From positions 1 to 38,599 of the IMG/VR virus record IMGVR_UViG_3300045012_000175: a DNA stretch of 38,599 nt; one strand, written 5' to 3'. A program made the translations under genes and the position numbers. The stretch is from a virus. The notes below the pieces were generated by a model, which ran no database searches, was not told the origin of the DNA, and saw nothing but the letters and a program-made list of their open reading frames with translations. Shown piece by piece: positions 3,362 to 19,273 of this stretch (position 1 is the stretch's first letter; every line of letters begins with the position of its first letter).

Positions 3362-3744
3362 CAGAGCCGCAGAACTTCGGCAAACTCTCTCCTTTCATCA
3401 CCTTCCAGGATCAGGGCAGGTTCTATATTGCCCAGGTGGCGTTTCCGAATTATTTAGGCGAAGTGCTGAGGGGGGCTGGGATGGCGGAGCTGGATAGCCG
3501 GATAGCGTGGAGTATGGTGGAAGGCTACCGAGTCTATATTGCATTCGCTGGTGTGCTGCAGGTTGGTGGATTACCACTGGAGATGGGATGGAGGGAGCGG
3601 GCTCGTGCAGCGGTGATAGCGATGGCGGAGTGGTATGGACAGAACAGGGTATATGGGAATGGGCTCAAGTGGAGAAGGTGGTTGGTGGATCAGGCAAGCG
3701 AGGTTCATGGTCGCGATTCTGCAAACGGATTGAGTGATTTATGA
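3358..3744 (+). CDS. Hypothetical protein
   Basis: A 128-residue protein whose start overlaps the preceding stop by 4 bp. It shows strand-rich hydrophobic segments (FITFQDQGRFYIAQVAFPNYL, YRVYIAFAGVLQV) and a helical, Trp-containing C-terminal half with basic residues (WYGQNRVYGNGLKWRRWLV). No family is recognised. It is the last plus-strand gene of the left block and converges on the minus-strand gene at 3705-4007, overlapping it by 40 bp. Confidence 0.5.
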   Translation: MTEPQNFGKLSPFITFQDQGRFYIAQVAFPNYLGEVLRGAGMAELDSRIAWSMVEGYRVYIAFAGVLQVGGLPLEMGWRERARAAVIAMAEWYGQNRVYGNGLKWRRWLVDQASEVHGRDSANGLSDL

Positions 3745-4007
3745 ACATAGTTAAGAGATATCTCCATAATTCTGGCAAGCATCCTATAAGATGTTTTCAC
3801 AATAGCCTCGTTTTTATCTTCTGAAATATAAGATTCCCTTATTTGAGATCTTAATTTAAGCGACGTAATAGTAATGTTGCACTGGTATTGATCTTCTACT
3901 ATCATCCCATTAAATGATGGGTGAAATGTTGCCGCATTAAAATCTATATCGCCGGCTATACAAACATCTCTGATTATATTTAAAATGACCTGTCCATCTT
4001 GTTCCAT
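3705..4007 (-). CDS. Hypothetical protein, last gene of the minus operon
   Basis: A 100-residue protein with no recognised family. It begins with a helix (MEQDGQVILNIIRDVCIAG), followed by strand-like segments (QYQCNITITSLKL) and a basic helix near the C-terminus. It lies 8 bp after the glycosyltransferase-like gene at 4016-4651 and is probably co-transcribed with it. It is similar in size to other small unknowns interleaved in this operon (for example 10639-10908), but I see no convincing shared motif. Confidence 0.5.
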   Translation of the reverse strand: MEQDGQVILNIIRDVCIAGDIDFNAATFHPSFNGMIVEDQYQCNITITSLKLRSQIRESYISEDKNEAIVKTSYRMLARIMEISLNYVHKSLNPFAESRP

Positions 4008-4015
4008 AACTTATT

Positions 4016-4651
4016 TTATTGTGGTGATTTTGCTTTCGGAATTTCCCCATACACATCACGTTGGTCTAGGGTAACATTTTTGTCGGTCCATCTGCCGGCG
4101 GTGGAGGAATAGCCCGCAAGCTGGATGGCACACATAGGGTAGATCACGCTACAGGAAAGGCCGGCAACTGCGGCAATATCAATATGTTCATCGTCTGGCA
4201 GCGCGAGAAATTGTTTATATGCCCATTTGAAAAGAATATACGCGTGGAAACCTTCGGGACCGGACATATAGCTGATCTGTAGGAAGTCGTGTTCGGGCAT
4301 TGTTTGTTTAAGTTCACGCAAGCGCTCCATATTCGGTATATTATAAGCTCCGGCCAGTTGCAAGCTGAAGCCGGCTGGTTCGATATGTTTGCACCACTGC
4401 GCGAGGCCGTCGGGGGCGGGGAAATACGCATCTTGCTCGCAAACGCAGGCATAAGGAAGTTCCATATCCAGACAGCGTTGCACAATTTCTTTGTGCGAGG
4501 CGTTGATACTGCCGACGATTGTTTCACGGTAAATTGGCGCGACTGTGTTGATATTGTAGCCCTTGACGCCCTGATCCTGCAGATGTTTCACTACCACGCT
4601 CTCGCGACGTGGATCAATTAAACACCACACTGTCAGACTTTCAGGCTTCAT
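4016..4651 (-). CDS. Glycosyltransferase family 25-like protein
   Basis: A 211-residue protein. Residues about 48-80 resemble GT25 (LPS biosynthesis-type) enzymes: a SH--IV--CL-----PYA-V-EQDAYFP pattern, in which 'EQDA' corresponds to the acidic nucleotide-sugar binding stretch. Further along, SYMSGPEGFHAYILFKWAYKQF resembles the region after the GT-A core where these enzymes read 'G--AY-is---A'. It is one of five glycosyltransferase-like genes in this operon. Acceptor and sugar cannot be read from sequence. Its start overlaps the upstream stop as ATGA (4648-4651). Confidence 0.7.
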   Translation of the reverse strand: MKPESLTVWCLIDPRRESVVVKHLQDQGVKGYNINTVAPIYRETIVGSINASHKEIVQRCLDMELPYACVCEQDAYFPAPDGLAQWCKHIEPAGFSLQLAGAYNIPNMERLRELKQTMPEHDFLQISYMSGPEGFHAYILFKWAYKQFLALPDDEHIDIAAVAGLSCSVIYPMCAIQLAGYSSTAGRWTDKNVTLDQRDVYGEIPKAKSPQ

Positions 4652-5052
4652 TCGACGTTGATGTTTTCGGGTTCGGTGGCTGGTTCGGGTTCCGTATGCT
4701 TGCGAATTTCCTCAATGATCACGATCAGATCTTCCTCTCTCAGCGTCCAAACCGCCGTCAAAAGGTCGGCAATCAATACGTACGAATCCTTCAGAAACTC
4801 CCGTTTGAGCAGCTCCTGAATTTCAGGCGTGGAACGCGGATGGGTTAAGAGGCAGGACTGGACTGAGCGACAGGCCGCCAGAGCGGTGTTCGTTCGAGCC
4901 TTTAGCTCGTGCCTCTGATCTCCTAAGAGAAGCAGCCCGTACTCAGCCACTATCGCACCGATCACCATCATCTTTATCGCGGACGCTTTTTCGGCTATCG
5001 CTTGCTCCGCCACCTGCTGAATCTGTTCTCTGGGCATGAAATTTTCGATCAT
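4648..5052 (-). CDS. Hypothetical helical protein
   Basis: A 134-residue, mostly helical protein. A hydrophobic stretch at about residues 26-43 (IKMMVIGAIVAEYGLLLLGD) could be a membrane segment or a buried helix. The C-terminus is acidic and Pro-rich (EPEPATEPENINVE). No family is recognised. It is coupled by 4-bp ATGA overlaps on both sides, to the Pro-rich gene upstream and the GT25-like gene downstream. Confidence 0.5.
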   Translation of the reverse strand: MIENFMPREQIQQVAEQAIAEKASAIKMMVIGAIVAEYGLLLLGDQRHELKARTNTALAACRSVQSCLLTHPRSTPEIQELLKREFLKDSYVLIADLLTAVWTLREEDLIVIIEEIRKHTEPEPATEPENINVE

Positions 5053-5234
5053 AAATTGTATTTGTCGTATGGTGATTGATTGTCGTACTTAGCTGGCGGC
5101 CTCTGGATCTTTCGCGGCGGATCTGGGACATACACAGGTTCATTTCTGACGCGGTGTTTGCGGGGTGGTGGCGGATCCGGCAATTCCTTGAGCCGGGTTC
5201 CGAACATAGCCTGCTGTACTTGGGTCCGTTTCAT
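5049..5234 (-). CDS. Small proline-rich protein
   Basis: A 61-residue protein, basic and Pro-rich (LPDPPPPRKHRVRNEPVYVP, then PDPPRKIQRPPAKYDNQSPY), likely disordered. I chose Met at 5234 because it makes an ATGA overlap with the upstream methyltransferase stop (5231-5234), matching the rest of the operon; an upstream Met at 5258 adds eight residues. No function is recognised. A basic proline-rich chain like this may be a binding or linker peptide. Confidence 0.5.
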   Translation of the reverse strand: MKRTQVQQAMFGTRLKELPDPPPPRKHRVRNEPVYVPDPPRKIQRPPAKYDNQSPYDKYNL

Positions 5235-5824
5235 AAATAAAATATTGCTGTTTTCCATTTATTGATGCCGTCGTTGTCGGTGTGGCCTTGTTGCTCGAAA
5301 ATCTCCGATTGGTAGGGGCGCATGAGCGCTTCAGCAGCCGAACTCATCCACACATACGACTGTTGCCAGTTATCGGCGATAACTATGCGGGGCCGCGTCC
5401 GAGCCAAGGCAACCGCCAGTTCCAAGCAGTTATCACGCAGAATTCCGTCCACACATATAATATCAGGGTCGCATAATGGTGGAATTGTCAGGTATTCGGC
5501 GGCGCGGTTCTGGTCTCCTTCGTTTATTTCTCTCCATATCAAGGTCGCCTTATGATCAAGATTATTTGCGACGAGCCACTCGCGGATATTATGCAGCCAG
5601 AATCCATTAGTTTCTATCGTGTATACGTGAGCGCAGTGGGCGGCGAGCCATGCTGTTGACCAGCCACCACCGAATTCAAGAACGGTCAGCGCATGCAGCG
5701 GCGCTTCGGTGTCGTCGCGCCATTGTTGTAGGCGGTCCAGCATTCCTTGTGTCCACCAGGGGAAAACGATGCCACTGACTGGATCCACGACTTGCCACTG
5801 TACCAGGTTGTTGATGTCAAGCAT
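5231..5824 (-). CDS. Class I SAM-dependent methyltransferase-like protein
   Basis: About 197 residues from Met 5824. The Rossmann SAM-binding motif I is clear (TVLEFGGGWSTAWLA, about residues 47-61). Next comes the acidic end of strand 2 (VYTIETN, about 69-75), then DIICVDG near residue 119 and VIADNW near residue 150, as in FkbM-like and related small methyltransferases. A longer frame starts at 5935, but Met 5824 is preferred because it overlaps the stop of a real small gene in another frame (5817-5969). The substrate is unknown; an O-methylation of a sugar made by the neighbouring glycosyltransferases is possible. Confidence 0.72.
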   Translation of the reverse strand: MLDINNLVQWQVVDPVSGIVFPWWTQGMLDRLQQWRDDTEAPLHALTVLEFGGGWSTAWLAAHCAHVYTIETNGFWLHNIREWLVANNLDHKATLIWREINEGDQNRAAEYLTIPPLCDPDIICVDGILRDNCLELAVALARTRPRIVIADNWQQSYVWMSSAAEALMRPYQSEIFEQQGHTDNDGINKWKTAIFYL

Positions 5825-5969
5825 GTTTACGGTTGAAGTGTCTTTCGATACTTTTGAGTATTTCTTTTTGCGCATCTGTCGGTTCTGGCAGCGATAAATT
5901 ACTCGCCAGCGGCAACCTATGTGGTTTAGTTTCAAATAATCGCTTCTTCTGTTTTCGCATATGCTTCAT
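5817..5969 (-). CDS. Small basic protein (50 residues)
   Basis: A short gene translating as MKHMRKQKKRLFETK..., then LPLASNLSLPEPTDAQKEIL and ending KSIERHFNRKHA. It has a basic start, a central Pro/Ser linker and a helical end. Support is positional: its ATG overlaps the upstream stop as TAATG (5967-5971) and its TGA overlaps the start of the downstream methyltransferase (ATGCTTGA, 5817-5824). It fills an otherwise empty 140 bp gap in a tightly packed operon. Function unknown. Confidence 0.65.
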   Translation of the reverse strand: MKHMRKQKKRLFETKPHRLPLASNLSLPEPTDAQKEILKSIERHFNRKHA

Positions 5970-6526
5970 TATATTCGTTTTAGTATTGTTAATCCATTAT
6001 TATTTTCATAGTGCCGGTCTATTTGCCAGTCCTGGTGCGCATTAAGGAAGTCTGTAATCGGGCCCATCAACTCTCCTTTGAACGTTTCGGTATCGTGGAA
6101 CGCAAGGTAGCGCGTTGCCTTGGTCCCATGCGCTGCCAGTTCAGCGCTAAGGTGTTCGCGCGTGTGAACCGTGTCGAAAAAGATCATGTCGCACTCCGGA
6201 ATTGGCGCTGTGACTGAGTTGGTGCAGAGGAATTCATATTGAACCCCCAGCCGCTTCGATTCTGAATACACTAGATCCAGGTTGCCTCCCATTGGGTCGT
6301 GATCTTTGTACTGCGAAGGGTGAGCCATGTCAACCGAGATCAGGCGCTTGGGCAAGCCCAGCAGGAGCGCCCAGGTACTGACGATGGACCTAACACCGAG
6401 CTCAACCACAATATCTAACCCATGCGCATACGCACGGAGTGTTGCTATGTGCTGGCAAATGTCGTTGTTACTCTTGACGTAGTACTCAAACAACTCTTCT
6501 GCTGTCTGTGGTTTTTCTTTGCTCAT
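5969..6526 (-). CDS. Class I methyltransferase-like protein (Methyltransf_24/CmcI type)
   Basis: 185 residues from Met 6526 (an upstream Met at 6568 would overlap the previous gene by 83 bp). The motif-I region reads IVVELGVRSIVSTWALLLG (about residues 38-56), followed by LISVDM for strand 2. Then come MIFFDTVHTREHLSAEL, which matches the 'iD--H-ye-v--Dl' signature of the cephalosporin-hydroxylase/Methyltransf_24 group, and LAFHDTETF. The family often methylates sugars or secondary metabolites. Being embedded among glycosyltransferase genes suggests a glycan-tailoring role (inference). Its stop overlaps the next start as TAATG. Confidence 0.72.
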   Translation of the reverse strand: MSKEKPQTAEELFEYYVKSNNDICQHIATLRAYAHGLDIVVELGVRSIVSTWALLLGLPKRLISVDMAHPSQYKDHDPMGGNLDLVYSESKRLGVQYEFLCTNSVTAPIPECDMIFFDTVHTREHLSAELAAHGTKATRYLAFHDTETFKGELMGPITDFLNAHQDWQIDRHYENNNGLTILKRI

Positions 6527-7142
6527 GTAGTATATGCATTTTTTCAATGTCTTTCTCCCGCTCGCCATCGTGAGAGCGAAGGTAGTAGTGGTACGATTTT
6601 TCCTGTAGCTCTATGGCACGTTGCCCCTTGGTCGGCGTGATCCCATGCGCCTGCATCCACTGACCAACAGCTACGTCGTCGATATGTTCGAAACCAAAGT
6701 CTTTCCTATCATCCCCGATCATCAGGTCCACCAGGTCGCGGGAAATGATTGTTCCAGCTCCTGAAACGTACGTCATGTTCACGGTGTTATACGGCTCATT
6801 TTTGTAGTGGCCGATGGCGCCGCAATAAAGACTGTGGCGTGGGAGTGGCTCCAGGAAACGGTACAGTGCCGGAATATCCACATACGCGCCAGTGTTTGTT
6901 TTCATCACATAGTCAAAGTCTTCTGATGAGTGCTCGGTCAAAAAGTCAAGAAACTTCCACAGCATAGCGCCGTATCCTTCCGGCCTCCACCACACCCAGT
7001 CGCCTGGCTGGATGTTTTTGTGGTTGTTGCCCCAGAGGTAATAGACATCGGGGTTGTCTTTGCCCCACGTCTCCCTGATCCCATCAGCCAGAAGCGGATG
7101 CTGCAGCCATTCGGCACAAAGGACGGTGAAGAGGATTTTCAT
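6486..7142 (-). CDS. GT31 (galactosyltransferase)-like protein lacking DxD
   Basis: A 218-residue protein resembling the beta-1,3-galactosyltransferase (GT31) fold, a family better known from eukaryotes. It shows ADGIRETWG near the N-terminus (the R-tW motif), FDYVMKTNTGAYVD at about residues 76-89 where GT31 enzymes have K-DDD-fv, then LYCG, TYVSGAGTIISRDLVDLM (the Y--G-GY--s-d motif), and HIDDVAVGQWM (the E/D-DV--G motif). The DxD metal site reads TNTG, so the usual acidic residues are missing. The enzyme may be inactive, metal-independent or a lectin-like derivative. It overlaps its neighbours on both sides. Confidence 0.75.
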   Translation of the reverse strand: MKILFTVLCAEWLQHPLLADGIRETWGKDNPDVYYLWGNNHKNIQPGDWVWWRPEGYGAMLWKFLDFLTEHSSEDFDYVMKTNTGAYVDIPALYRFLEPLPRHSLYCGAIGHYKNEPYNTVNMTYVSGAGTIISRDLVDLMIGDDRKDFGFEHIDDVAVGQWMQAHGITPTKGQRAIELQEKSYHYYLRSHDGEREKDIEKMHILHEQRKTTDSRRVV

Positions 7143-7375
7143 GGTTCGATGGGCTTTAGATCAGGGACACGTTGTATTAAGAATGATAACCGCTTTTGCT
7201 GTTTTGCTAAAGTATCTAATTCTATGTCACCAGTTTCGGTATTTATTTTAGCTTTTTTACTATATAACGGAATCAGTATAACAGAATTATCTTTCGTGTA
7301 ATGAGCTTTAAATACTGTCGCAGTGTTAGATGCCTCTAATTTCATTATATAAAATTCGCCTTCTTCGATGTTCAT
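7139..7375 (-). CDS. Hypothetical small protein
   Basis: A 78-residue protein with alternating strand-like segments (EFYIMKLEA, TVFKAHYTK, SVILIPLYSK) and a GD-ELDTLAKQQKRL helix near the C-terminus, suggesting a small beta-rich fold. No family is recognised. ATGA overlaps join it to the glycosyltransferase-like genes on both sides (7139-7142 and 7372-7375). It may be an accessory subunit of those enzymes, but only position supports this. Confidence 0.5.
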   Translation of the reverse strand: MNIEEGEFYIMKLEASNTATVFKAHYTKDNSVILIPLYSKKAKINTETGDIELDTLAKQQKRLSFLIQRVPDLKPIEP

Positions 7376-8169
7376 AATAGTTCTTTGTATTTAGTGTGAT
7401 ATTCAAACAACCATTCAAAATCTTCATCCGGATATTGTATTGTCAGCAGCTCTACGATGTTGCTGAACGCTGGTTCCTCATATCCTGGCCGCCAAAGGTG
7501 CGCGTCTAGCAACGTTGGGCCACAGTAACTGCGCCAGTTCACGTCGTCACGATCTGCCCTGTTCATGGCGAATTGAGTGCCGGGTCGGGCGCGGTTTTGA
7601 AACGCTATCGGCTGATCAAACGATAGCTGTCGGTACAGGAGCGATTGATCAAAAGACCATTGATGGCCCCTAAAGTTTTCGCATTCTATTGGTCCCAACT
7701 CTGCGTCAAGGCATTCCTGCAGCGTGCGCCCCTTGATCTTCATCGCCTCGCGCCACCTGCTTACGCGTCCTGAAATATAGCAAACTGGATACTGCTTTTG
7801 CGGTACAAGATCTACGCCGAGAATATTCATATAGTCGTCGTCCGGAAAAACGTCTCTGAACACTATCATATCTGCGTCGGAGGTGATAAGGATGTCGTTT
7901 GGATCAACGATGCCATCTGCTGCCGCGAATAGTCTTCCAACCTGCGCGTACGTAGCCTGCTTATCTTCCGGCGCAATAAATGTAGCACACCAGCCATAAT
8001 TATTAATTTCGAGCGCCTTCATCAGCGCAAAATGTGCGGCTTTACTAATAACAGCCGGGATGATACAAATTGTTCTGATCCCCAGTTTCCCCCAACACCA
8101 CGCAGCTATCGGCACAAAAAAACTATATAGGGGATCGCTGGTAGTTGATATGACTGCGTATTTTTTCAC
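7372..8169 (-). CDS. GT-A-type glycosyltransferase-like protein
   Basis: A 265-residue protein. The nucleotide-sugar binding DxD is seen as ILITSDADMIVFRD (about residues 92-105), with the preceding helical segment that places it in a GT-A fold. A C-terminal region rich in aromatic and His residues (HLWRPGYEEPAFSN) could contribute to the acceptor site. The N-terminus, MKKYAVISTTSDPLYSFFVP, reads as the first beta strand of a Rossmann-like fold; it is not a signal peptide. It lies in the same operon as four other glycosyltransferase-like genes. Sugar and acceptor unknown. Confidence 0.72.
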   Translation of the reverse strand: MKKYAVISTTSDPLYSFFVPIAAWCWGKLGIRTICIIPAVISKAAHFALMKALEINNYGWCATFIAPEDKQATYAQVGRLFAAADGIVDPNDILITSDADMIVFRDVFPDDDYMNILGVDLVPQKQYPVCYISGRVSRWREAMKIKGRTLQECLDAELGPIECENFRGHQWSFDQSLLYRQLSFDQPIAFQNRARPGTQFAMNRADRDDVNWRSYCGPTLLDAHLWRPGYEEPAFSNIVELLTIQYPDEDFEWLFEYHTKYKELL

Positions 8170-8459
8170 CCTATGATTTTGAGTAAGTGAGCTTCGATTT
8201 CATCGAGCATCCTATTGTTGGCGTATATCTCCTGCAACCTGGCTTCGCAAAATTGCGCGAAATCAGTGATGGCCGGATCTTTAGGTTTCTCTACTTGTTC
8301 TGGTTTACGAAGATTGAGGATATCATGCAGCCTTGACTGGATCCGGTTGATAGTGCACTGCTGCGTGCTGAGATAGTCGCTCAAATTCTGCCCGAATTGT
8401 TTTAACATTGGGTTAGACGCTTCCTGTACTGGTGCTGGATTTACTGCTCCTTGATACAT
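8166..8459 (-). CDS. Hypothetical helical protein
   Basis: A 97-residue protein, mainly helical, with heptad-like stretches (LKQFGQNLSDYLSTQQ, then INRIQSRLHDILNL) and a second helical part at the C-terminus (RLQEIYANNRMLDEIEAHLL). It is likely to form a short coiled coil. No family is recognised. Its stop is ATGA-coupled to the glycosyltransferase-like gene at 7372-8169; the gene before it ends 34 bp upstream. Confidence 0.5.
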   Translation of the reverse strand: MYQGAVNPAPVQEASNPMLKQFGQNLSDYLSTQQCTINRIQSRLHDILNLRKPEQVEKPKDPAITDFAQFCEARLQEIYANNRMLDEIEAHLLKIIG

Positions 8460-8493
8460 ATATTTTTATTTTGTGCGCCGGGGTAGCGCGGGT

Positions 8494-9174
8494 TTAAATC
8501 CCCTGTAAAAAAAAGATGACTTCCTCCGGATTATGCTGCGGCCAGTAGGCGACAGCCTCTGTGCTGTATTTGTTGGTGAGCCCCAGTTGATACATTGCCA
8601 GCGAAAAGCAGGACTGATCCTGGCGAAAATGCAAGAAACGTGGATCACTCGACTGGCCATCATGGTTCCGGCTCCCCTTACTCAGGCCACTCTCAACGTA
8701 CGATTTCCACAGACGATAAAGCCGTGCACCATCAGGGTTATCCATTCGAAAGCCGAGAAACCCTCCGGCCCATTCGTTGGCATCAGCTACCTGGTCGCGG
8801 GTTAGGCGTAAGGTGGCCAGCACACTGTCACTGATTGTCTGCCCCAAGTTGTACCCTGTCCTAAAGCAATAGAACCCCTGTTCATCAATGATATCAAATA
8901 TCGTCATCGGTGATTTTACGGCCCAAAAACTTGCATCCACCCAAAGAATGTGAGTGTATCCTGCTTCTATAGCCCAGTCGATGGCACTGATCTTGAATGC
9001 GTACGGGAACTGTTCGTGACTGGGGCTGTTGGGCGGATACTCATTCTTCCATGTATGCCACGGTATCGGAGAGCCCACGAAGTTCAGCGAACGTTCAAGC
9101 CGCTCCACTCCTTTAGCGAACCACTGTCCGTTACCGCAGGAGAGAATGATTGGTCGCGTGTTATTGAGGTCCAT
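8494..9174 (-). CDS. Putative glycosyltransferase (GT-A-like)
   Basis: A 226-residue protein. The key segment is FKISAIDWAIEAGYTHILWVDASFWAVKSP (about residues 60-89), a helix then a strand ending in D-A-S, where GT-A enzymes carry DxD. Later EWAGGFLGFRMD and the C-terminal HFRQDQSCFS resemble the acceptor and 'DQ' motifs of small nucleotide-sugar transferases. The acidic pair is incomplete (DAS), so activity is less sure than for the gene at 7372-8169. Its start overlaps the stop of the GldL-like gene as TAATG. Confidence 0.62.
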   Translation of the reverse strand: MDLNNTRPIILSCGNGQWFAKGVERLERSLNFVGSPIPWHTWKNEYPPNSPSHEQFPYAFKISAIDWAIEAGYTHILWVDASFWAVKSPMTIFDIIDEQGFYCFRTGYNLGQTISDSVLATLRLTRDQVADANEWAGGFLGFRMDNPDGARLYRLWKSYVESGLSKGSRNHDGQSSDPRFLHFRQDQSCFSLAMYQLGLTNKYSTEAVAYWPQHNPEEVIFFLQGI

Positions 9175-9446
9175 TACTTATATATGCGGTTAAGAATAGA
9201 GTTGGTTGTGCGGATTTCTTTCACCACTTCATCATTCGGCTGCGATGGTGCACCTCCAACCTCGGAAGCCTTCGGCGGCGTGAAAGCATAAATCAGAAAG
9301 ATGACACACTCTGATAATAGTCCGGCTGTGAGAGCTGTATCAGCAAAATAGTGGTGTTCAATCTTACCCCAAGCGCCAAAAATAACAATGGCTGCTCCGA
9401 ATGAGAAGCAGAAATTAAGAACGGTCTCTCGTGTGAATCGTTTCAT
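9174..9446 (-). CDS. GldL-like two-segment membrane protein
   Basis: A 90-residue protein with membrane segments at about residues 10-26 and 38-55. The sequence GAAIVIFGAWGKIEHHYFAD, followed by ALTAGLLSECVIFLIYAFTP, closely follows the N-terminal membrane region of GldL, the Bacteroidota T9SS/gliding motor protein. That includes a Lys at the end of segment 1 (K28) and a Glu in segment 2 (E46) at the places of functionally important residues in GldL. GldL is about 215 residues, so only the membrane part is present, with a short tail. It may sit in the host inner membrane and interact with the motor, or serve as a holin-like protein; the first is inference from similarity. Confidence 0.68.
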   Translation of the reverse strand: MKRFTRETVLNFCFSFGAAIVIFGAWGKIEHHYFADTALTAGLLSECVIFLIYAFTPPKASEVGGAPSQPNDEVVKEIRTTNSILNRIYK

Positions 9447-9469
9447 TGTGTGTAGGTTTACGTAGAATT

Positions 9470-9766
9470 CTATCCATGCCAGACGCGTGTTGATTTAAAC
9501 TTGCCTTTAATATTTGCGTGGAAAAATTTTCCTACGCTGTCAACCTGCAACATCGCGTCGAAGATCGAGGGCGGTACCTCGTGGTAGTCCCACACTTCTC
9601 CTGATTTAAACCATACGCGGAGTGTGTTGTCCTGGTGGCCGATATGGCTGATTAATGACGAGGCGACGAGGGTTTGTTTCATTTTACGAGATTTTATTGC
9701 GTTATAAGTAGCTTCAGCGTGAGCGATTATTCCAGTTACTTTTGCGTGTATTACGTTCGGGTCCAT
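9470..9766 (-). CDS. KTSC domain protein
   Basis: A 98-residue protein. Residues about 36-96 match the KTSC domain pattern: SSLISHIGHQDNTLRVWFKS, GEVWDYHEVPPSIFDAMLQV, then SVGKFFHANIKGKF. KTSC domains (named for a Lys-tRNA synthetase-associated form) are common in phage and their role is not settled; a nucleic-acid or RNA-binding role has been suggested. About 35 helical residues precede the domain. The start overlaps the upstream stop as TAATG. Confidence 0.78.
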   Translation of the reverse strand: MDPNVIHAKVTGIIAHAEATYNAIKSRKMKQTLVASSLISHIGHQDNTLRVWFKSGEVWDYHEVPPSIFDAMLQVDSVGKFFHANIKGKFKSTRVWHG

Positions 9767-9975
9767 TATAACTTTTCGAAATATTCGTTTATAAATTTTT
9801 CATCCGCTGATGGCATAACTATACTCACGTAGCCGGTTTTGAAATTTAGTCTGGCTGTAGTATTTGGTTCCGGGCTTAACGATCCAAAAAAGAATCCATC
9901 GGCGCCTTTACCAATCTGGTGTCCCCCTTCAATTTGTAAATCATGTTTTAGTTTATGCGTTTTCTTTGATTCCAT
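9766..9975 (-). CDS. Hypothetical small protein
   Basis: 69 residues from the preferred Met at 9975 (87 if the Met at 10029 is used, which would increase overlap with the GT2 gene to 77 bp). The sequence is basic at first (MESKKTHKLKHDLQIEGGH) and then strand-rich (ARLNFKTGYVSIVMPSADEK) with a short terminal helix. No family is recognised. It lies between the GT2-like gene and the KTSC gene, overlapping both. Confidence 0.48.
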   Translation of the reverse strand: MESKKTHKLKHDLQIEGGHQIGKGADGFFFGSLSPEPNTTARLNFKTGYVSIVMPSADEKFINEYFEKL

Positions 9976-10636
9976 AGCGTTCGTTGTGATTTGTTGATGT
10001 ACGTCTATACAAATAAATTTCCGAATCAATGTGGATCTCTTCTCTCAGCATTGGCCTGATAAGTCTTGCGAAGTCGTGGTCCTCGCCGAAGCGCATATCA
10101 GCAACACCAATGTGGCAGCAATAGTCTCTACGAATCACAGATTTAAAGAAAGGTGTGCGATGAAAATGAAAGCCATCCTCCAATTCTCGGTCGCCTTCGC
10201 CTTCCCAATCAGGATAGCGCAGTGAATGGTTGGATTTCTTGATCACCCCATCCATATCGCAGTGCTCCTGGTAAGTCACGCAATCAGGCCTACTCTCAAG
10301 GGCGTACATAATCTGTGCGAGTGCGGTTTCTGCAACCCAATCATCGCTGTCCCATTGAACCGCGTACAACCCAGATGCGAGGCGGTAGAGGCGGTCGCGT
10401 TTTGTCCCCACGCTGATCTGCCGGTCGTCTTCATAATAATGTAGGCTGATGTTGGGTGAATACCAACCTCCAATCGTAGATCCATCCTCCTTCTTCCCCG
10501 AAAGAAAACCACGGAATTCGGTGGCGTCCGTAAGCTGCATAGCCTGGCGAAGAAATTCTCCTACCAGGCTATCGCAGGCCTGTCTTCTGTCGGGCGTACT
10601 CGGAATTAGTATAGATAGTATTGGGTTAGTAAGCAT
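9953..10636 (-). CDS. GT2-like glycosyltransferase
   Basis: A 227-residue protein of the GT2 (GT-A) type. It begins with the usual first strand and helix (ILSILIPSTPDRRQACDSL). The DxD motif appears as YAVQWDSDDWVAETAL (about residues 91-106), placing the metal-binding acidic residues, and EDHDFARLIRP near residue 193 matches the catalytic 'ED' region. The size fits a single-domain soluble GT2. It belongs to the glycan operon; donor and acceptor unknown. Confidence 0.82.
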   Translation of the reverse strand: MLTNPILSILIPSTPDRRQACDSLVGEFLRQAMQLTDATEFRGFLSGKKEDGSTIGGWYSPNISLHYYEDDRQISVGTKRDRLYRLASGLYAVQWDSDDWVAETALAQIMYALESRPDCVTYQEHCDMDGVIKKSNHSLRYPDWEGEGDRELEDGFHFHRTPFFKSVIRRDYCCHIGVADMRFGEDHDFARLIRPMLREEIHIDSEIYLYRRTSTNHNERYGIKENA

Positions 10637-10638
10637 TA

Positions 10639-10908
10639 TTATTGATTGTCTATGGCTACAATTATCGTTGCTTTATATTTTTGACCTGATGTTTCAAATT
10701 TCATAAGACCATTATTCCCAGGACCGATTCTCTGAGCGAAAATTTCGGCTCCTACGTGAGAATACCAGCCTCTTTCAAAATCGTGAGCTATTTCAGTCAG
10801 ATTCGAAATAGCGGCTTTAACCATGTCATTACCGCGGATCTCATTATACTTAGTAAGGTTATTTATAACCGAAATAATATCATCCTGTTTCTTAAAACCG
10901 TCATTCAT
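10639..10908 (-). CDS. Hypothetical small protein
   Basis: An 89-residue protein, helical in its first 45 residues (MNDGFKKQDDIISVINNLTK..., KAAISNLTEIAHDFERG) and strand-rich at the end (KYKATIIVAIDNQ). No family is recognised. It is coupled by ATGA to the glycosyltransferase-like gene upstream and ends 2 bp before the start of the GT2 gene downstream. Confidence 0.5.
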   Translation of the reverse strand: MNDGFKKQDDIISVINNLTKYNEIRGNDMVKAAISNLTEIAHDFERGWYSHVGAEIFAQRIGPGNNGLMKFETSGQKYKATIIVAIDNQ

Positions 10909-11576
10909 AAATCAAAATTATTTGCCTCGCGTTTTTCGTAATTTAATTTATCTTCTGAATATCCTATCTCCTGCTGCTCGTCGAACATGGCGTCTCGTGG
11001 CAAATGCCCATAAGCCGGATTCATATGAATGCAGATTGGTGTTGGAATAAACAGATAGCGTTCTCTTAAGCGAGCCACCTCTGTTGCCTCGTTGTCGCAG
11101 AACAGCGACTTATACGATGGATGGTAGACGTAATGATCGCGCTGGTAGTAGGCCCTCCCAATCACAGACATTACAGATACTCTCTCTGCTGAATCGCGCT
11201 CAACGAAATGTATAAACCAATCAAGGTCTTCAGGCATGTAGTCCATAATCAGGCGGTCCCAGCCTTTTACGCACATGGCCATATCGTCTGAAAAGGCGAC
11301 AAGAATATCCCAATCAGCGGGGACGCGGTTGAATGCATCGACTTTGCTTTTACTGTAACCGATATCCATCGTCACTTTTATTTCTGGATTTGTCCCCCAA
11401 TATTCTGCTATTTCGCGTCTATACGTTCCTAGCGACAGATCATCCATATCAAGTACTGCATTAACTCGAAAGAGGTTGGGATCTACACAGTTGCCATATA
11501 TTGAAAACAGCCCATCCATGAATCTCTGCGGTCTTCCGCGACTTGGGTATTGTATGAGGATGGGGCGGTGGGTCAT
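10905..11576 (-). CDS. GT-A-type glycosyltransferase-like protein
   Basis: A 223-residue protein starting PILIQYPSRGRPQRFMDGLF, the first strand and 'SRGRP' turn common in small GT2-like enzymes. An acidic pair appears in ILVAFSDDMAMCVKGWDRLI (about residues 91-110), as expected for the metal site, and LFCDNEATEV near residue 155 may be the second acidic motif. The gene directly follows the GroES-like gene with an ATGA overlap (11573-11576). Confidence 0.72.
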   Translation of the reverse strand: MTHRPILIQYPSRGRPQRFMDGLFSIYGNCVDPNLFRVNAVLDMDDLSLGTYRREIAEYWGTNPEIKVTMDIGYSKSKVDAFNRVPADWDILVAFSDDMAMCVKGWDRLIMDYMPEDLDWFIHFVERDSAERVSVMSVIGRAYYQRDHYVYHPSYKSLFCDNEATEVARLRERYLFIPTPICIHMNPAYGHLPRDAMFDEQQEIGYSEDKLNYEKREANNFDL

Positions 11577-11830
11577 ACTACTCCATATATTTCTGATGGA
11601 AGATCACGTAACAAAAGAAACAGTTTGCCATCAATTTCATACTGCACGCCAGCGCCAGCGGGATGAAGGATTTTGTCCTTCGCTTTGCAGTCGCTGTCTG
11701 GGCCAGCTTTCACAACTTCGCTGACCTTGGTTGGACTGTGAGCCGGCGATAGCACCAGCCCTCCTGCCGTTTTCTTTTCAGAGGGTTTCTCCGTTTTGCA
11801 TAGAACCCAATCGTGTTTCATTCGTTTCAT
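11573..11830 (-). CDS. groES: GroES-like co-chaperonin
   Basis: An 85-residue protein of the Cpn10 family. The order is as in GroES: strand DWVLCKTEK, mobile loop KKTAGGLVLSPAHSP (about residues 19-33, where GroES contacts GroEL), strand VSEVVKAGPDS, the KAKDKILHP turn, and the C-terminal GKLFLLLRDLPSEIYGVV. It is about a dozen residues shorter than bacterial GroES (about 97). Phage co-chaperonins such as T4 gp31 replace host GroES so that GroEL can fold large capsid proteins. It is the first gene of the minus-strand operon, facing the virion operon across a 71 bp gap. Confidence 0.88.
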   Translation of the reverse strand: MKRMKHDWVLCKTEKPSEKKTAGGLVLSPAHSPTKVSEVVKAGPDSDCKAKDKILHPAGAGVQYEIDGKLFLLLRDLPSEIYGVV

Positions 11831-11901
11831 TGGACGAAGATAATGTTGAACTTTGAAATAAAAAAATATTTTATTATAATTTATTTATTTATCTTTATCG
11901 C
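11831..11901. promoter_or_regulatory. Divergent promoter region
   Basis: 71 bp, AT-rich, between the GroES-like gene (minus) and the HTH gene (plus). It must contain the promoters of both operons unless they start further inside. On the minus strand TATCTTCG lies about 15-20 bp before the ATG, close to the Bacteroidota -7 element TAnnTTTG. On the plus strand only weak matches (TAATTTAT) can be seen after a TTTG. The assignment is by position. Confidence 0.4.
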
Positions 11902-12090
11902 ATGGAAAAATTAGACAGGGAGATACTGCAGTATTTCGCTGATGGAAAAAAACAATCTGAAATCGCGAGGCTGAAAAAAACTTCTCAGCCAACAATTGCT
12001 ACGCGCATGCGCATTATCAGAGGCATTCTCTCTGCCAAATCCACGCCACACGCTATTGCTATTGCGTTCAGACAAAAACTCATCAAATGA
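11902..12090 (+). CDS. LuxR-type HTH small regulator
   Basis: A 62-residue protein consisting almost entirely of a LuxR/GerE-type helix-turn-helix: LDREILQYFADGKKQSEIAR, then KTSQPTIATRMRIIRGILSA, matching 'L---E-eVL-l-a-G-s--eIA--L--s--TV--h---I--KL'. There is no receiver or ligand domain. It is the first gene of the virion operon and ends with an ATGA overlap with the next gene. A stand-alone HTH at the junction of two divergent operons is a likely switch for one or both (inference). Confidence 0.7.
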   Translation: MEKLDREILQYFADGKKQSEIARLKKTSQPTIATRMRIIRGILSAKSTPHAIAIAFRQKLIK

Positions 12091-12698
12091 TCCAGTGCAC
12101 TCACAACCGCCTGATAATTTCCATCGACACGCAGTTCGCTGATCGGCGTGATATAGGGAACGGTCGCTATCTGTTCATAGAGACGAAATTTAATCCGGAA
12201 GAAAAAGTTTCCCTCACGGCGAAGGTAGAGTCCCTGCCTCGCGCGATAAGGAATGGACCAGGGCAAACCCTCGCGTTGGGCGCCCTGGCTGTGGGGGATA
12301 CGATTATGATACGCTATGATGTACTCGCTGAGACACGCGACCAGCCTGACCGAGATTCGATAAAATACCAGCATCAGATCATGGTTGACGGTGTGCCATT
12401 GTGGTTCTGCGATATCGAGCAGGTGCTGGCGAGGCGCAACGATGGCGCTTGGGAAATGATGAACGATTACGTGATGATTTCTCCAGTGGTGGACGCGACG
12501 GAACAGATCGGGTTGATCATTGTTCCTGAACACTACCGCCGCAAAAGGCTTGAAGGTGTTGGTCGCGTGATCTCAGGTCCCGACTCAGGCGAAATGGTGC
12601 GCTTTGCCAAGAAATTTGCGCAAGAGTACAGTGTAGATGGAGAGCCGATTCTCATCATCCGTGAGCGGTACGTGATGGGCACCGAGGCATCCGCCTAA
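12087..12698 (+). CDS. Protein with two GroES-like folds
   Basis: A 203-residue protein that reads as two Cpn10-like repeats. The first (about residues 8-113) has NRLIISIDTQFADR, a GRYLFIETKFNPEE loop, VGDTIMIRYDV and a C-terminal VDGVPLWFCDIEQVLARR. The second (about 121-200) has NDYVMISPVVDATEQIGLII with the loop VPEHYRRKRLEGVGRVISGP and VDGEPILIIRERYVMG. The order (strand, loop with GL/GR-hydrophobic, 'GD/GP' turn, 'dGe--l-i-e--vl') matches GroES twice. It is adjacent to, and divergent from, a normal single-domain GroES-like gene. It could bind chaperonin as a fused ring or be a structural head protein with this fold; the assignment is by eye. Confidence 0.6.
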   Translation: MIQCTHNRLIISIDTQFADRRDIGNGRYLFIETKFNPEEKVSLTAKVESLPRAIRNGPGQTLALGALAVGDTIMIRYDVLAETRDQPDRDSIKYQHQIMVDGVPLWFCDIEQVLARRNDGAWEMMNDYVMISPVVDATEQIGLIIVPEHYRRKRLEGVGRVISGPDSGEMVRFAKKFAQEYSVDGEPILIIRERYVMGTEASA

Positions 12699-12753
12699 AA
12701 TAATTGCGCAGCTTCCTGATTTATTGTAACTTACCCCGCAAACTACCCAAAAA

Positions 12754-13428
12754 TTGGATTTGCAGGAGATACACAACCGTTTCCTTGGGCTGATCAATAA
12801 ATCGCAAGGGGCGTACTATCCTCCTGGGCAGATTGACGAATGGCTCGATATGGGTCAGATGGCGGTGTTCAATACCTACTATCTTGAATTCGCTAAAAGC
12901 CAACGTATAGCAGACGCTCTGGCGCCTTTCAAAAAGAAATTCACTTTCACTAATGTCACTACTCCAGCAGGCATAGTCACTGTTCCATCGGATTATTTTG
13001 ATGCAATAAGAATCAGTATGATTGTGCAGACGCCGAATGGGCAAGTCCTAACCCGTCCATGCCCGCGCTTGAACGACGACGAGTTGACCGGGCGTATCAA
13101 CTCTCAGATCAAACCACCATCTGTAATGTGGCCAGTGTGCGAAACGATACTTAATTGGAATCTGCAGTTGTACCCAAAACAGCCACAAGCCGGGGAGTTG
13201 GCGTATCTGTCACGACCTGCTATTCCAAACTTCATGTACACAACAACCGGTGGTGTCATCATATACAACCAAGGGCTTAGTACGCAGATGGAGTGGGCAG
13301 ATAAAAATATTGATGAAATCCTGAACCTTGCAATAACATTAGCAGGAGTGAATACCAGGGAACAGGATTTAGTACAGTATGGAGAACAAAAAGAAACGCA
13401 GGACGCTACAAGTCCTGTTAAATCATGA
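12754..13428 (+). CDS. Ring/adaptor-like virion protein (crAss-like type)
   Basis: A 224-residue protein with a likely TTG start (no in-frame ATG until residue 33, yet residues 2-32 form a good helix, LQEIHNRFLGLINKSQGAYY). The middle is strand-rich, and the C-terminus has the ELAYLSRPAIPNF segment, LSTQMEWADKNIDEILNLAI and an 'AGVNTREQDLVQYGEQKE' helix. That pattern recurs in a family found next to the muzzle gene in crAss-like phages. A role in the portal-tail connector is inferred from that and from the position at the head of three similar-sized structural genes. ATGA overlaps the next gene. Confidence 0.6.
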   Translation: MDLQEIHNRFLGLINKSQGAYYPPGQIDEWLDMGQMAVFNTYYLEFAKSQRIADALAPFKKKFTFTNVTTPAGIVTVPSDYFDAIRISMIVQTPNGQVLTRPCPRLNDDELTGRINSQIKPPSVMWPVCETILNWNLQLYPKQPQAGELAYLSRPAIPNFMYTTTGGVIIYNQGLSTQMEWADKNIDEILNLAITLAGVNTREQDLVQYGEQKETQDATSPVKS

Positions 13429-14081
13429 CAACACGAATTTCCATAGCAGAACAGGCCCAGACATGGCTCGGAGGTGGTCAGAACCCGGACGCGCAGAACG
13501 TCCATATCTTGGATCTGATGACGACGATAAACCAGATCGCTAACAAGTTTTTGAAGATGCAAGCGCTTGAAACGTACTCGATGGGAGAAGAAATACCAAG
13601 CGGAGCTGCGATTGGTGAATATAATAATATCCCGGTTGTTAAGTACAACAACGTGAGTTCATCCAAATTGCCAGTATACCCTATCAAGCTAAGAAAGAAC
13701 CTTGGTTTGTTTGAAATATTTCCAACAGGAGATCCGAGCGCATCATTTATAATATTACAGCAGGGTGATCTTGCACTATTGAAAACGCAGCCGTTACTGA
13801 ATGCATTATCAGGACGAATAGGCGCTATACCAAACGGAATGATAATCCAGTATACGAAGGATCTAACGGTTGGGGGTACACTAACTCCGACTGTTACGAT
13901 GAGGTTGGTAGTGCTAGATTTTAATCAATATTCTGACACAGATATTTTGCCAATTGCAGCAGATCAGGAATATGATTTACTGACAGAATTTGTGCGGTTT
14001 TACGGAGGCGAACCGCCGCCAAATAAGATCGTGGATCCGGGAACAAAAGATACTAGAACAGCAGGACAATTAATGGCATGA
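13425..14081 (+). CDS. Ring/adaptor-like virion protein 2
   Basis: A 218-residue protein. A helical N-terminus (TTRISIAEQAQTWLGGGQNP, then ILDLMTTINQIANKFLKMQA) is followed by strand-rich segments (LPVYPIKLRKNLGLFEIFPT) and a C-terminal helix with LLTEFVRFYGGEPPPNKIVD. It is coupled by 4-bp overlaps to the genes on either side, which both look like head-tail connector proteins. No specific family motif is recognised; assigned by context. Confidence 0.5.
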   Translation: MTTRISIAEQAQTWLGGGQNPDAQNVHILDLMTTINQIANKFLKMQALETYSMGEEIPSGAAIGEYNNIPVVKYNNVSSSKLPVYPIKLRKNLGLFEIFPTGDPSASFIILQQGDLALLKTQPLLNALSGRIGAIPNGMIIQYTKDLTVGGTLTPTVTMRLVVLDFNQYSDTDILPIAADQEYDLLTEFVRFYGGEPPPNKIVDPGTKDTRTAGQLMA

Positions 14082-14845
14082 AATTAATAAGCCTTGATCA
14101 AATTGTTATGAGGACGCTGATACACAAGCGCCTGACCAATCATTGGTATTTGGAATTCTTGTCATATGCTGCAGAATGTTTGAGGGAAAAAACATGGGAT
14201 ACTTTTCAAACAACTAAGTCAGTACTGCTCACACTCAACTCATACTACGCCATAACACTTCCATGTGACTTTGAATCAATTGTTGGTGTTGGAATTCAGA
14301 ATGGACAATTCGCGCAACCTGTAACGCAGCGCAATGGAATAAATGACTTATCGAACCTTAACAGTCAGGGACAACCGATTCCGTACGGAACGCTAACGGA
14401 TAGTTCAGATACATTTGATAACTTCCCTTCATTCCCGGGGTACTTTTTATTTCAAAACACCGATTCTTTGGGCGAGAACCTCGGTAGGCTCTATGGCTTA
14501 AACACAGGACTAGTAAACACTTCATACAAATATATTAAAGGTAGAAATCAGATTCAATTCTCTGAAGATTTTCCCGCACAACAGGTAGTGCTTGAATATT
14601 TATATGATGGCGAGTGCCCTGATAATGCTACAAAAGTTCCTTCAGAAGCATTTAAGATGATTCAAACATACATAGACTGGCAATGGAAAGTTGATGCGCG
14701 TAAAAGTAGTCCCGGAGAAGTTATGATGGCAGAAAAGGCATTTTCAAGAGAGTGGAGGTATACTCGTGCGAGGATTGCGAATATAGGACTTGAAGATATT
14801 CGTCAGTCGATACTTAAGAGTTATAATGGCGCAATAAAAACTTAA
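14078..14845 (+). CDS. Ring/adaptor-like virion protein 3
   Basis: A 255-residue protein. The N-terminal pattern SLDQIVMRTLIHKRLTNHWY, with EFLSYAAECLREKTWDTFQT and YYAITLPCDFESIVGVGIQN, is the signature of the crAss-like adaptor/ring protein family. In that family a helix containing 'H-Y--yL-ya---lRe' precedes 'lP-D-v-i--vg'. The C-terminal part (EAFKMIQTYIDWQWKVDARK) is helical. It probably sits between the portal and the muzzle in the virion. It is followed by a 28-nt hairpin and then the muzzle gene. Confidence 0.65.
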   Translation: MKLISLDQIVMRTLIHKRLTNHWYLEFLSYAAECLREKTWDTFQTTKSVLLTLNSYYAITLPCDFESIVGVGIQNGQFAQPVTQRNGINDLSNLNSQGQPIPYGTLTDSSDTFDNFPSFPGYFLFQNTDSLGENLGRLYGLNTGLVNTSYKYIKGRNQIQFSEDFPAQQVVLEYLYDGECPDNATKVPSEAFKMIQTYIDWQWKVDARKSSPGEVMMAEKAFSREWRYTRARIANIGLEDIRQSILKSYNGAIKT

Positions 14846-14873
14846 AAATCCTCACGTGGACACGCAAGGATTT
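14846..14873 (+). other. Hairpin between adaptor and muzzle genes
   Basis: AAATCCT (14846-14852) pairs with AGGATTT (14867-14873), and inside this CGTG (14855-14858) pairs with CACG (14861-14864), with CA/CA mismatches between the two stems and a GA loop. The arm starts immediately after the stop of the adaptor gene. No T-run follows, so it may attenuate or process the transcript instead of ending it. Confidence 0.45.
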
Positions 14874-14925
14874 CCATTAAACATTAACCTAACGAAATGA
14901 TTTCTCAAAAGCTAAGTTAGGGAAT

Positions 14926-17900
14926 ATGCAACAAATAGACCGCAGAGTTTTTAAGGATGGCCAGTTGGATACTGATTCAGGGAGTATATTCCTGGGTCAA
15001 AACTCATGGGTCAATATGAGGGATTTTCGCACTGGCTCGACGGACACTCAGCAGGGAAGGGTGGATTATCTGCAGTCCATCGGGAGTACGATATTGAAGG
15101 TGAACAATGCGCTGCCGCCAACTATTACGACTCCACCCATATGTCTCGGTCATGCGCCTGATTTCCCGTATAAAAGAATTATTTACGCGGTATGGACGCC
15201 GGAGGGCAATAACGGGTGGTTTTGTTATGATATCCCAAGTGATACGGTCTACACTGTGCTGCTTGATGCGCAGGTAACTGGCGGACTTGGATTCGATAAG
15301 TACCATCCAATCCACTCAGCCTTCGTACTCAATCACTGCGTTTACTGGACTGACAATAACCAGCAGCCCCGCCGGGTGAATATTGATGCTGGGATTAAGA
15401 TGAACCAACCCAGCTACAGTACGCCATTCCTCCCATACACTGCCCCACTCGACCCCTCCATTATCAGTTGGATCCGTAGGCAACCCGGTATGCCGCCGAG
15501 TTTTATTAAAATTACACAGACAGTTCCGCCGATAACTACCAATTTTATTGCGCCGGAAGCCTTTCAATTCTGCTACCGGTATGTATATAGAGACTTCGAA
15601 ACAGGCACCCTATCGGCACTCTCTGCTCTCAGCAACTTCAATAGCCTGACAGACACTTTTAACCGTATCGACGTCAGCATTCCGCTACAGGAAAAAATTC
15701 AACAGGATGTTGTGCAGATCGACCTGGTGGCACGGTACCTCATTTCTGGCGTATACTTCATCATCAACTCATGGCAGACATCCGTTCCTGCGGACGCCGC
15801 AGCTATCGCTGCGCATAACGCGGGTACGACTCCGCTCATGTACTCCTTTTATAATGACAAGGTGGGCATCGCGCTTGATTCAGCGTATTCAATAAAGCCG
15901 TATGACAATGTGCCATTGCTTGCAGGAACAGTAGAGGCCGCTAAGAATCGCGGATTCATGGCTGATGTGACACTTGGTTATGATTCGCCGCAGGTCACCT
16001 CCTTAGCAGTCACGCCAAATAATCAAACAGCGAGTAATATCCTCACAGGACGCTGGTTTTTATTTACATTCAACTCCGTATGCGCAGGCGTATCGTCAGG
16101 TACGCAGTCGTACTACCTTTTGGATATCACAAACCTTCCGGATCCAACGACACGCGGTTATTATTACGCCGGATCTGGCGCTGGAATTCCACCATTCCCA
16201 GGATCATACGCATGGACGGGACTGACATTTGTTGGTGCAGGGCTCTTCGATGTTATGAATCATTTTCAGCCTGGGTGCACAAACTCGATACTAGGTTTCG
16301 TCAATCAATCTGCAACTACCACTATCACGGGAGGACCGATACCACCGGCAGTAATCGGAAGCACGGTGTTTAAGACAGATGCTTCTTACCAGGCAGCAGT
16401 GACTTTTTACGACTATTACGGAAGAAAATGCGGCGTTGTTACCAATCCGGGATTGAAAACATATATAGCTGACCGGACGTACAATCAGCTATCCTATACC
16501 GTCGGCATCGACTGGACGCTGAGTAATGCGGCAGCACTGGCCGAAATTCCACCATGGGCGTACTACTATTCTGTTGATTTGAGTAACTGCCTTCGCACGC
16601 GATTTTTCCTGCAGGCACAGGCGCAGTTTATCTGGTATGCTGCTATTGATCCATCTAGCGGGCTAACAACGTTTTCTACCACCACATATGCACCGACGCT
16701 TGCCGGTGTTGCTGTGGACATAAGCGCCTTGGACAGCTTCGGGCAGGGGTACGTATTTGCAAAAGGAGATATATGCAAACTATATTTCCCAAATCCTGTA
16801 GGCGCAACTACACCGAAGTCTGAGTTTCGCCTCTCCATTATAGGCCAGGATAATCAGTTTATTATTTGCCAACTTGCCGATGTGGGAACCGTTGGCGGAA
16901 CAACGCCATATAACGGCGTACCTAGTTTGTTCGAAATATATACCCCATATCAAGCGATACCGGATGAACCATACTTTGAAGTAGGGCAGTTATTTCCGGT
17001 TACTAACCCAGGACTGAGTACCCGCGCCTACAGTGTTATCGCCGGAACTTTCGCCGGAGACGTATATATAATGAACCGAAATAATACAACTCTCGCATTC
17101 CCATCGGCTGGTGAAAATTATGGCGCTGAGAACATGAACCCAAACGATACGTTTTACCTGAACTGGTTTACAAATGCCGGACGTCCGAATTTCGTTGATA
17201 CTATCGGCCAGGTAAATCAAACAGCATCTGGTGCGTATTCGAATACGTTTATCCTGGGATCTAAAATTAACGGATTATCTACGTTCGATTTGTTCAATAC
17301 ATTCGATTTGTCTCCTGATTATGGTACGATCATGAAACTGGTACTGACTAATAAAATACAGTTCACAGGGAGTATCATGCTGGCGATCTGCAGTGGTGGT
17401 GAAACAGCATCACTTTATCTTAATGAAAATGTCATCATAACAACGACCGGGGAAACACTTATTACACAAAGTTCCAGCGTGGTTGGCTATATTAATAACC
17501 TAAAGGGAAGTTACGGGACGCTGAATCCTGAGTCGGTGGTAGAGTTCCGTGGAAACGTATATTGGTACGACGCGCTAAATGGGAAGTATATTCAGTATTC
17601 TGATAGTGGGTTGTTCCCAATCAGCAACTACAAGATGACGAGGTATTGGAAGTTGTTTACGCAGCAGTATAATTCGATGACGCCGGCGCAGATCGAAGCA
17701 CTCGGTTCAAGGCCGTACGTGTTCTCTGGTATAGACCCACACCATGGTGAGCTTCTGGTATCTGTCCCGCGTGTCCTTGCCACGCCGCCCATGGGCTACC
17801 TCGTTGACTACCCCGGAGTGCCGTATCCAGGGGATTTCTGGGATGGGCAGGCGAAGAGTGCGGTGTATAAGATTTCCGCTAATCCGAATAAATGGACAGG

Positions 17901-18384: not shown

Positions 18385-18631
18385 TGCCAGCGATGGCGCA
18401 ACGGGTAATATAATGGCGCTAACGGTCTATACAAACGCGCAAGGAGTTCCGGTTTCGGGCGATATCGTCTGGCGGGAAAGACTTATTCATTTGAATGACG
18501 TGTATATGATCAGAGTATGTGGTACTAAAATGGAAGTTATATATAAGGAAAGGCCGGCAGAGAAAATTGTATGTACGCAGCAGGAGATACAGGATATAGT
18601 TAATAGTTTGAATAATGATACACGAGTTTGA
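18377..18631 (+). CDS. Hypothetical small protein
   Basis: 84 residues from ATG 18377, overlapping the muzzle stop by 8 bp; a Met at 18413 (MALTVYTNAQGVPV) is an alternative start that would remove the overlap. It has strand-like segments (IVWRERLIHLNDVYMIRVCG, TKMEVIYKE) and a C-terminal helix (CTQQEIQDIVNSLNN). No family is recognised. It overlaps the next gene by 17 bp. Confidence 0.5.
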   Translation: MRNASDGATGNIMALTVYTNAQGVPVSGDIVWRERLIHLNDVYMIRVCGTKMEVIYKERPAEKIVCTQQEIQDIVNSLNNDTRV

Positions 18632-18824
18632 AAAGCCGGTGTTGGTTGAAACGCCACTTGGGCAAGGATATGTGTGGTATGTGACAGACGGGAAGATGTT
18701 TGAGAATGATTGTTTCACTGTGATACTGATGGAAAGCGGAATTGTGAAGCATTTTACGAGTGAGCAGATAAAGGTGAGTAAAAATTATACGTATGGGATC
18801 GGGATCAACGACAAAGACCGGTAG
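18615..18824 (+). CDS. Hypothetical small protein
   Basis: A 69-residue, strand-rich protein (KPVLVETPLGQGYVWYVTDG, CFTVILMESGIVKHFTSEQI) resembling a small SH3-like barrel, with a short C-terminal tail. No family is recognised. It overlaps the genes on both sides (17 bp and 32 bp) in the virion operon, between the muzzle and the acetyltransferase. Confidence 0.48.
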   Translation: MIHEFEKPVLVETPLGQGYVWYVTDGKMFENDCFTVILMESGIVKHFTSEQIKVSKNYTYGIGINDKDR

Positions 18825-19272: not shown

Positions 19273-19273
19273 T

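Follow-up and report, generated by a model that had tools for sequence, protein, structure and literature searches.

The glycan operon

The window analysed here is the whole of virus record IMGVR_UViG_3300045012_000175, a stretch of 38,599 bases. Its minus strand carries an operon that runs from groES (11830) down to 3705 and encodes six glycosyltransferase-like proteins (A, B, C, D, E and H), two methyltransferase-like proteins (F and G) and a series of smaller products (Table 1). The operon is genuine and far above chance expectation: the minus strand holds eight open stretches of at least 190 codons and the plus strand none, and 300 dinucleotide-preserving shuffles gave 0.05 on average and two at most. 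Genes fill 99.2% of 3705-11830; their junctions include seven four-base ATGA overlaps, one of GTGA and three of a single base. An earlier note, made from the sequence alone, had described a groES-led glycan operon beside virion genes, its members nearly all joined by ATGA or TAATG; the operon is borne out, most of its junctions being of these kinds. The count of nineteen genes within 4016-11830 has to be amended, as eighteen lie there and the nineteenth at 3705-4007, and the five glycosyltransferase-like proteins become six. Both methyltransferase-like proteins are present, with only weak family matches (F, 0.009; G, 0.11). Most of the interleaved genes described as small unknowns stay in that class; two are recognisable, as a KTSC-domain protein and an N-terminal fragment of GldL.

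Table 1. Features of the operon and of the adjoining virion genes
Feature	Position	Strand	Evidence
Protein, 100 aa, probable last gene	3705-4007	-	begins 8 bases past H
H, GT25-like glycosyltransferase	4016-4651	-	Pfam Glyco_transf_25 2.8e-4, just below cut-off
Protein, 134 aa	4648-5052	-	ATGA overlaps
Small protein, 61 aa	5049-5234	-	ATGA overlaps
G, Methyltransf_24-like methyltransferase	5231-5824	-	Pfam 0.11 (weak), motif EFGGGWST
Small protein, 50 aa	5817-5969	-	1-base overlap with F
F, RMNT/CmcI-like O-methyltransferase	5969-6526	-	Pfam RMNT_CmcI 0.009 (weak)
E, GT31-like galactosyltransferase fold	6486-7142	-	Pfam Galactosyl_T 1.7e-5, above cut-off
Small protein, 78 aa	7139-7375	-	ATGA overlaps at both ends
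D, putative GT-A glycosyltransferase, SDAD motif	7372-8169	-	motif alone, no family match
Small protein, 97 aa	8166-8459	-	GTGA overlap with D
C, GT8-like putative glycosyltransferase, cassette gene 3	8494-9174	-	no family match of its own; via family
GldL N-terminal mini-protein, two transmembrane helices	9174-9446	-	Pfam GldL_N 2.3e-17; PDB 6ys8 GldL 3.8e-6
KTSC-domain protein	9470-9766	-	Pfam KTSC 1.5e-16
Small protein, ~69 aa, start codon uncertain	9766-9975	-	open frame overlapping end of B
B, GT2-like glycosyltransferase, cassette gene 2	9953-10636	-	PHROG 8858, 2.5e-20
Small protein, 89 aa	10639-10908	-	ATGA overlap with A
A, glycosyltransferase, cassette gene 1	10905-11576	-	PHROG glycosyltransferase 14945, 1.8e-9
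groES, co-chaperonin, first operon gene	11573-11830	-	Pfam Cpn10 29.3 bits, above curated cut-off
Divergent A+T-rich gap, operon versus virion genes	11834-11901		sequence; best promoter-like match 11853-11880 +
GroES-like protein opening the virion block	12087-12698	+	PHROG co-chaperonin GroES 8.1e-6; syntenic in LY-5
Virion block: structural proteins, TerL 31658-33691, portal 33688-36006	12754-38126	+	PHROG hits; collinear stretches in LY-5

A homologs adjoin B in 41 retrieved loci, and the D..DD and SDD motifs are invariant across the A family; a search of the PDB with the A-family profile returned only dolichol-phosphate mannose synthase, at 0.084. B aligns with the N-terminal domain of gp108 of mycobacteriophage Che8 (27.6% identity; 2e-17 when a small database was searched and 1e-9 in a tblastn search of all phages) and conserves D-x-DD and GED motifs. 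C belongs to a family of 33 open reading frames, the window's own included, with invariant W.D(S) and R(H)(D) positions. One member of the C family matches GT8 at 1.1e-4, no solved glycosyltransferase was found when its profile was run against the PDB, and the family appears to be undescribed. No match to A, C, D, E, F, G or H was found in 50,697 phage records at 1e-3; single-protein searches found none for A, C, D and E in viral contigs, nor for C in genome contigs, and C and D had no match in 395 Bacteroidota genomes, in a search run without a positive control. AlphaFold2 models of C (pLDDT 43) and D (pLDDT 38), made without alignments, were unusable. By hydropathy, clear hydrophobic stretches occur only in the GldL fragment and the 134-aa protein, H and F barely exceeding 1.6; as in the Che8-type clusters, no glycosyltransferase of the operon has a clear transmembrane helix.

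GldL is a motor protein of type IX secretion and gliding. The operon encodes a 90-aa protein that corresponds to its two-helix N-terminal part and lacks the cytoplasmic part; it shares 50% identity over 60 residues with the GldL of Chitinophagaceae isolate LY-5. The fragment was not found in the 39 related phage records searched, and one uncultured phage record gave a weak match. The fragment may act as a poison (dominant-negative) subunit that blocks the motor and brings about superinfection exclusion.

Recurrence of the A-B-C cassette

An alignment of B, Che8 gp108 and gp91 of Gordonia phage Sixama was used as query against IMG/VR and retrieved 80 loci, among which A and C of the window also turned out to have strong homologs. 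We define the A-B-C cassette as homologs of A, B and C in this order, on one strand, within about 4.3 kb; in the window the trio has this order and spans 3.1 kb. A, B and C occur together in 29 other loci, which represent nine clusters at 50% identity of A; the order A-B-C is kept in 26 of the 29, and the span ranges from 2.0 to 4.3 kb. Among the collected loci C was never seen without A; since B served to gather the loci, not finding A on its own carries no weight. The cassette is widespread, and as far as we found it has no name in the literature searched.

The cassette is linked to head genes. In ten of the A-B-C loci, neighbouring proteins include members of the families of portal, terminase, head maturation protease and head proteins, and the commonest Pfam family is the FkbM methyltransferase (10/88 neighbour proteins). 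Several copies lie directly upstream of terminase and portal genes in unrelated phages, and in three loci (L158, L213 and L223) the portal gene follows about 1.4-2.8 kb past C. PDB sequence searches with the large genes adjoining the cassette in L206 and L218 did not yield identities. A further locus, L176, has a homolog of F (1.2e-33) some 0.6 kb beyond an A/B gene. The comparison of operon content across phages that the earlier note had called for thus finds an A-B-C core that travels together, with methyltransferases and head genes. The A family is also present among the replication genes of actinophages Blueeyedbeauty (Streptomyces, L226) and Mimi (Arthrobacter, L227), where it adjoins a second glycosyltransferase and a nucleotidyltransferase, a setting in which it perhaps serves another acceptor.

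The phage, its host and its relatives

In its terminase the window phage shares 24-28% identity with phages of Cellulophaga, Flavobacterium, Maribacter and Tenacibaculum, Pervagoviridae and Elemovirus phages among them; it is podovirus-like and related to Cellulophaga phi38:1. PHROG matches for structural proteins, TerL and portal fall within 12754-36006; the gene cut by the window end is, from its position, probably the major capsid gene. The operon diverges from a short helix-turn-helix gene (11902-12090) and a GroES-like gene (from 12087), which open the virion block, and the A+T-rich gap in between is likely to be the promoter region. Two distinct GroES-like genes (12087-12698, plus strand; 11573-11830, minus strand) are found here within 260 bases of each other, and a gene of the longer kind stands ahead of TerL in phages of Cellulophaga, Flavobacterium and Maribacter as well. 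Within the virion block, a GNAT acetyltransferase gene (18793-19272, plus strand) has no counterpart at that place in LY-5, and a 1,533-aa protein (26483-31084, plus strand) contains a histidine-phosphatase domain (His_Phos_1, 6.1e-23).

A bacterial genome scaffold of isolate LY-5 (JAQGEF010000007.1; L099/L140) holds a related virus region, probably a prophage or integrated relative, with 43% identity in TerL and 33% in the portal protein. Counterparts of window genes 12087-19852 keep the same order there, no operon gene has a convincing match, and the place upstream of the GroES-like gene is taken by a minus-strand gene homologous to window 36909-38126. As this syntenic relative has the same virion genes without the operon, the operon is accessory. 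The LY-5 virus, together with the GldL match to the same isolate, suggests a host among the Chitinophagales.

In the annotated relatives phi38:1, elemo and Panino no glycosyltransferase is listed in the stretches shown. Two related contigs (L021 and L022) each have two GT2 genes adjoining TerL, and L022 additionally has a DegT aminotransferase and an RmlD-like gene. A third relative (IMGVR_UViG_3300017772_000165; L038 8576-15277, L094 496-3314) encodes a 2,233-aa collagen-like, lysine-rich fibre, followed downstream by a gene that joins GT4, GT25 and 2-oxoglutarate oxygenase-like domains and then by a sulfotransferase gene, an arrangement that resembles, in phage form, the hydroxylation and glycosylation of lysines in collagen. 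Glycan modules are thus repeatedly sited among virion genes in this lineage, although only 3/39 records searched for GT25 and GT2, many of these records being fragments, have them. Because relatives carry collagen-like fibres, a collagen-like acceptor was considered for the window phage and rejected, the window containing no G-X-Y run of six triplets.

A model for the function of the operon

What does this assembly of enzymes make? We propose, with a probability of roughly 0.6, that the enzymes of the operon attach a short, methylated, O-linked glycan to a virion protein in the cytoplasm. As an accessory module for glycan synthesis in a podovirus-like phage of Bacteroidota, the operon would supply soluble cytoplasmic glycosyltransferases that draw on host nucleotide sugars and build a short O-linked glycan stepwise on one or more virion proteins during assembly, after which one or two methyltransferases would cap sugar hydroxyls. 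The A-B-C trio would be the portable core of the module, and D, E, H, F and G its lineage-specific extensions, while groES at the operon head would help these same late proteins to fold. The observations from which the proposal starts are the operon itself, the recurrent association of A-B-C with head genes and the homology between B and a gene from a cluster reported to glycosylate virions. It is favoured mainly because of the Che8 precedent, in the form of gp108, homologous to B, and gp110, and also because the cassette recurs beside head genes, the glycosyltransferases are without clear transmembrane helices and no thymidylate-synthase-type gene accompanies them. The earlier note had left the target as capsid or fibre proteins, DNA or the host surface; the evidence now favours virion proteins, without settling the matter.

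The same enzymes could decorate the lipopolysaccharide core or another glycan of the host surface, thereby altering receptors and blocking superinfection, which we consider unlikely. GT25 and GT31 families and soluble peripheral glycosyltransferases do act on lipopolysaccharide. A theme of exclusion would also be possible if the GldL fragment of the same operon blocked the gliding motor, gliding proteins being reported to matter for the adsorption of some phages (PMC13288928); however, no membrane glycosyltransferase, flippase, lipid-carrier glycosyltransferase or O-antigen polymerase was recognised among the operon proteins, and the cassette recurs beside the terminase, portal and head genes of unrelated phages. 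Glycosylation of DNA bases, a hypermodification against restriction, is to our mind very improbable, even though phages have a diversity of DNA glycosyltransferases (Pyle et al. 2024, as relayed in PMC12619734), the A family occurs among actinophage replication genes and the window holds only part of the genome. The well-known route to such DNA passes through a hydroxymethylated base from a thymidylate-synthase-type enzyme, as proposed for Thanatos (PMC12838424). The corresponding family PF00303 is absent from the window and from the 39 relatives, three of them complete genomes, an absence that only lowers the likelihood of DNA as the target because the window is a fragment; moreover, six glycosyltransferases exceed the number used by known DNA-sugar pathways.

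There is equally little to recommend the view that the operon has mostly moved past glycan making, with some glycosyltransferase-like proteins surviving as degenerate scaffolds or decoys among what would be mainly host-takeover genes. The resemblance of D, F and G to enzymes is weak, E is without its metal motif, and neither the GldL fragment nor the KTSC protein has an obvious glycan role; yet A, B and C retain invariant catalytic-type residues across very diverged relatives. Several of these facts nevertheless weigh against glycosylation of a virion protein. D was assigned from a motif alone, and the assignment of G is weak. GT31 enzymes carry a DDD metal motif, and in E, aligned with them by eye, KTNTGAY takes its place, so that the activity of E is doubtful. 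With this motif lost and no sugar-nucleotide synthesis gene recognised in the window, the defined oligosaccharide of the earlier note stays an inference. To these points must be added the action of GT25 and GT31 enzymes on lipopolysaccharide, already mentioned, and the actinophage replication genes, since the presence of the A family among them makes the link between cassette and head genes less than exclusive. The acceptor, the linkage and the sugars are deduced rather than observed, and the window, ending within the probable major capsid gene, may miss DNA-metabolism genes that would point elsewhere.

A bolder version of virion glycosylation, which we regard as a long shot, is that in many unrelated tailed phages A-B-C attaches a particular methylated glycan to a protein of the head, C representing a new GT8-like family, and that the GldL mimic jams the gliding and type IX secretion motor, so that one transcript would both coat the virions and close the cell to rivals. 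Glycosylated phage particles have so far been reported for a few mycobacteriophages. If a fixed-order cassette beside the head genes of many unrelated environmental phages does have this function, particle glycosylation would be common in nature, and such a coat of glycan could influence how stable the particles are, how they adsorb to surfaces and how antibodies recognise them.

Comparison with known systems

Serotype conversion of the gtrABC type relies on a membrane flippase and a bactoprenol glycosyltransferase, and no such family is found among the operon proteins. Sixama gp91-gp92 resembles the operon in having a B-type glycosyltransferase, located inside the virion block between the capsid and major tail protein genes, and differs from it in comprising two glycosyltransferases only and no methyltransferase.

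L188 (IMGVR_UViG_3300022908_000001) is a 73-kb contig whose TerL is akin to that of the window phage (28%, 1e-37). A, B and C, at 25-34% identity, lie there on a single strand about 5 kb ahead of TerL, in the order fused A/B, second B, C, three further genes, a probable GroES-like gene and TerL; the three further genes are probably two methyltransferases and one glycosyltransferase. What the two phages share is that A-B-C lies close to TerL, itself related between them, and that a probable GroES-like gene intervenes; unlike in the window, the cassette of L188 is on the virion strand and is not accompanied by D, E or H. No description of the L188 cassette was found in the literature searched.

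The Che8 cluster is reported to glycosylate capsid and tail proteins, and gp110 to be essential for capsid glycosylation (Freeman et al. 2023, as cited in PMC12363180 and, for the former, PMC12619734). Its domains are GT2, Methyltransf_24 and GT25, the types of B, G and H in the operon; gp108 also has a methyltransferase domain, and gp110 is a GT25 protein. Both systems are multi-gene, soluble and phage-encoded. B is homologous to the glycosyltransferase domain of gp108, and GT25 is matched by gp110 and, slightly under the cut-off, by H. In contrast to Che8, the operon has six glycosyltransferase-like and two methyltransferase-like proteins and a Bacteroidota host, is led by groES and is opposed to the virion genes. 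The earlier note had seen here a candidate for an undescribed system; virion glycosylation by a phage gene cluster is already known from Che8, at least as these citing papers describe it, and the operon, whose B is homologous to a gene of that cluster, appears to work like one, with a methylated virion glycan as its predicted product.

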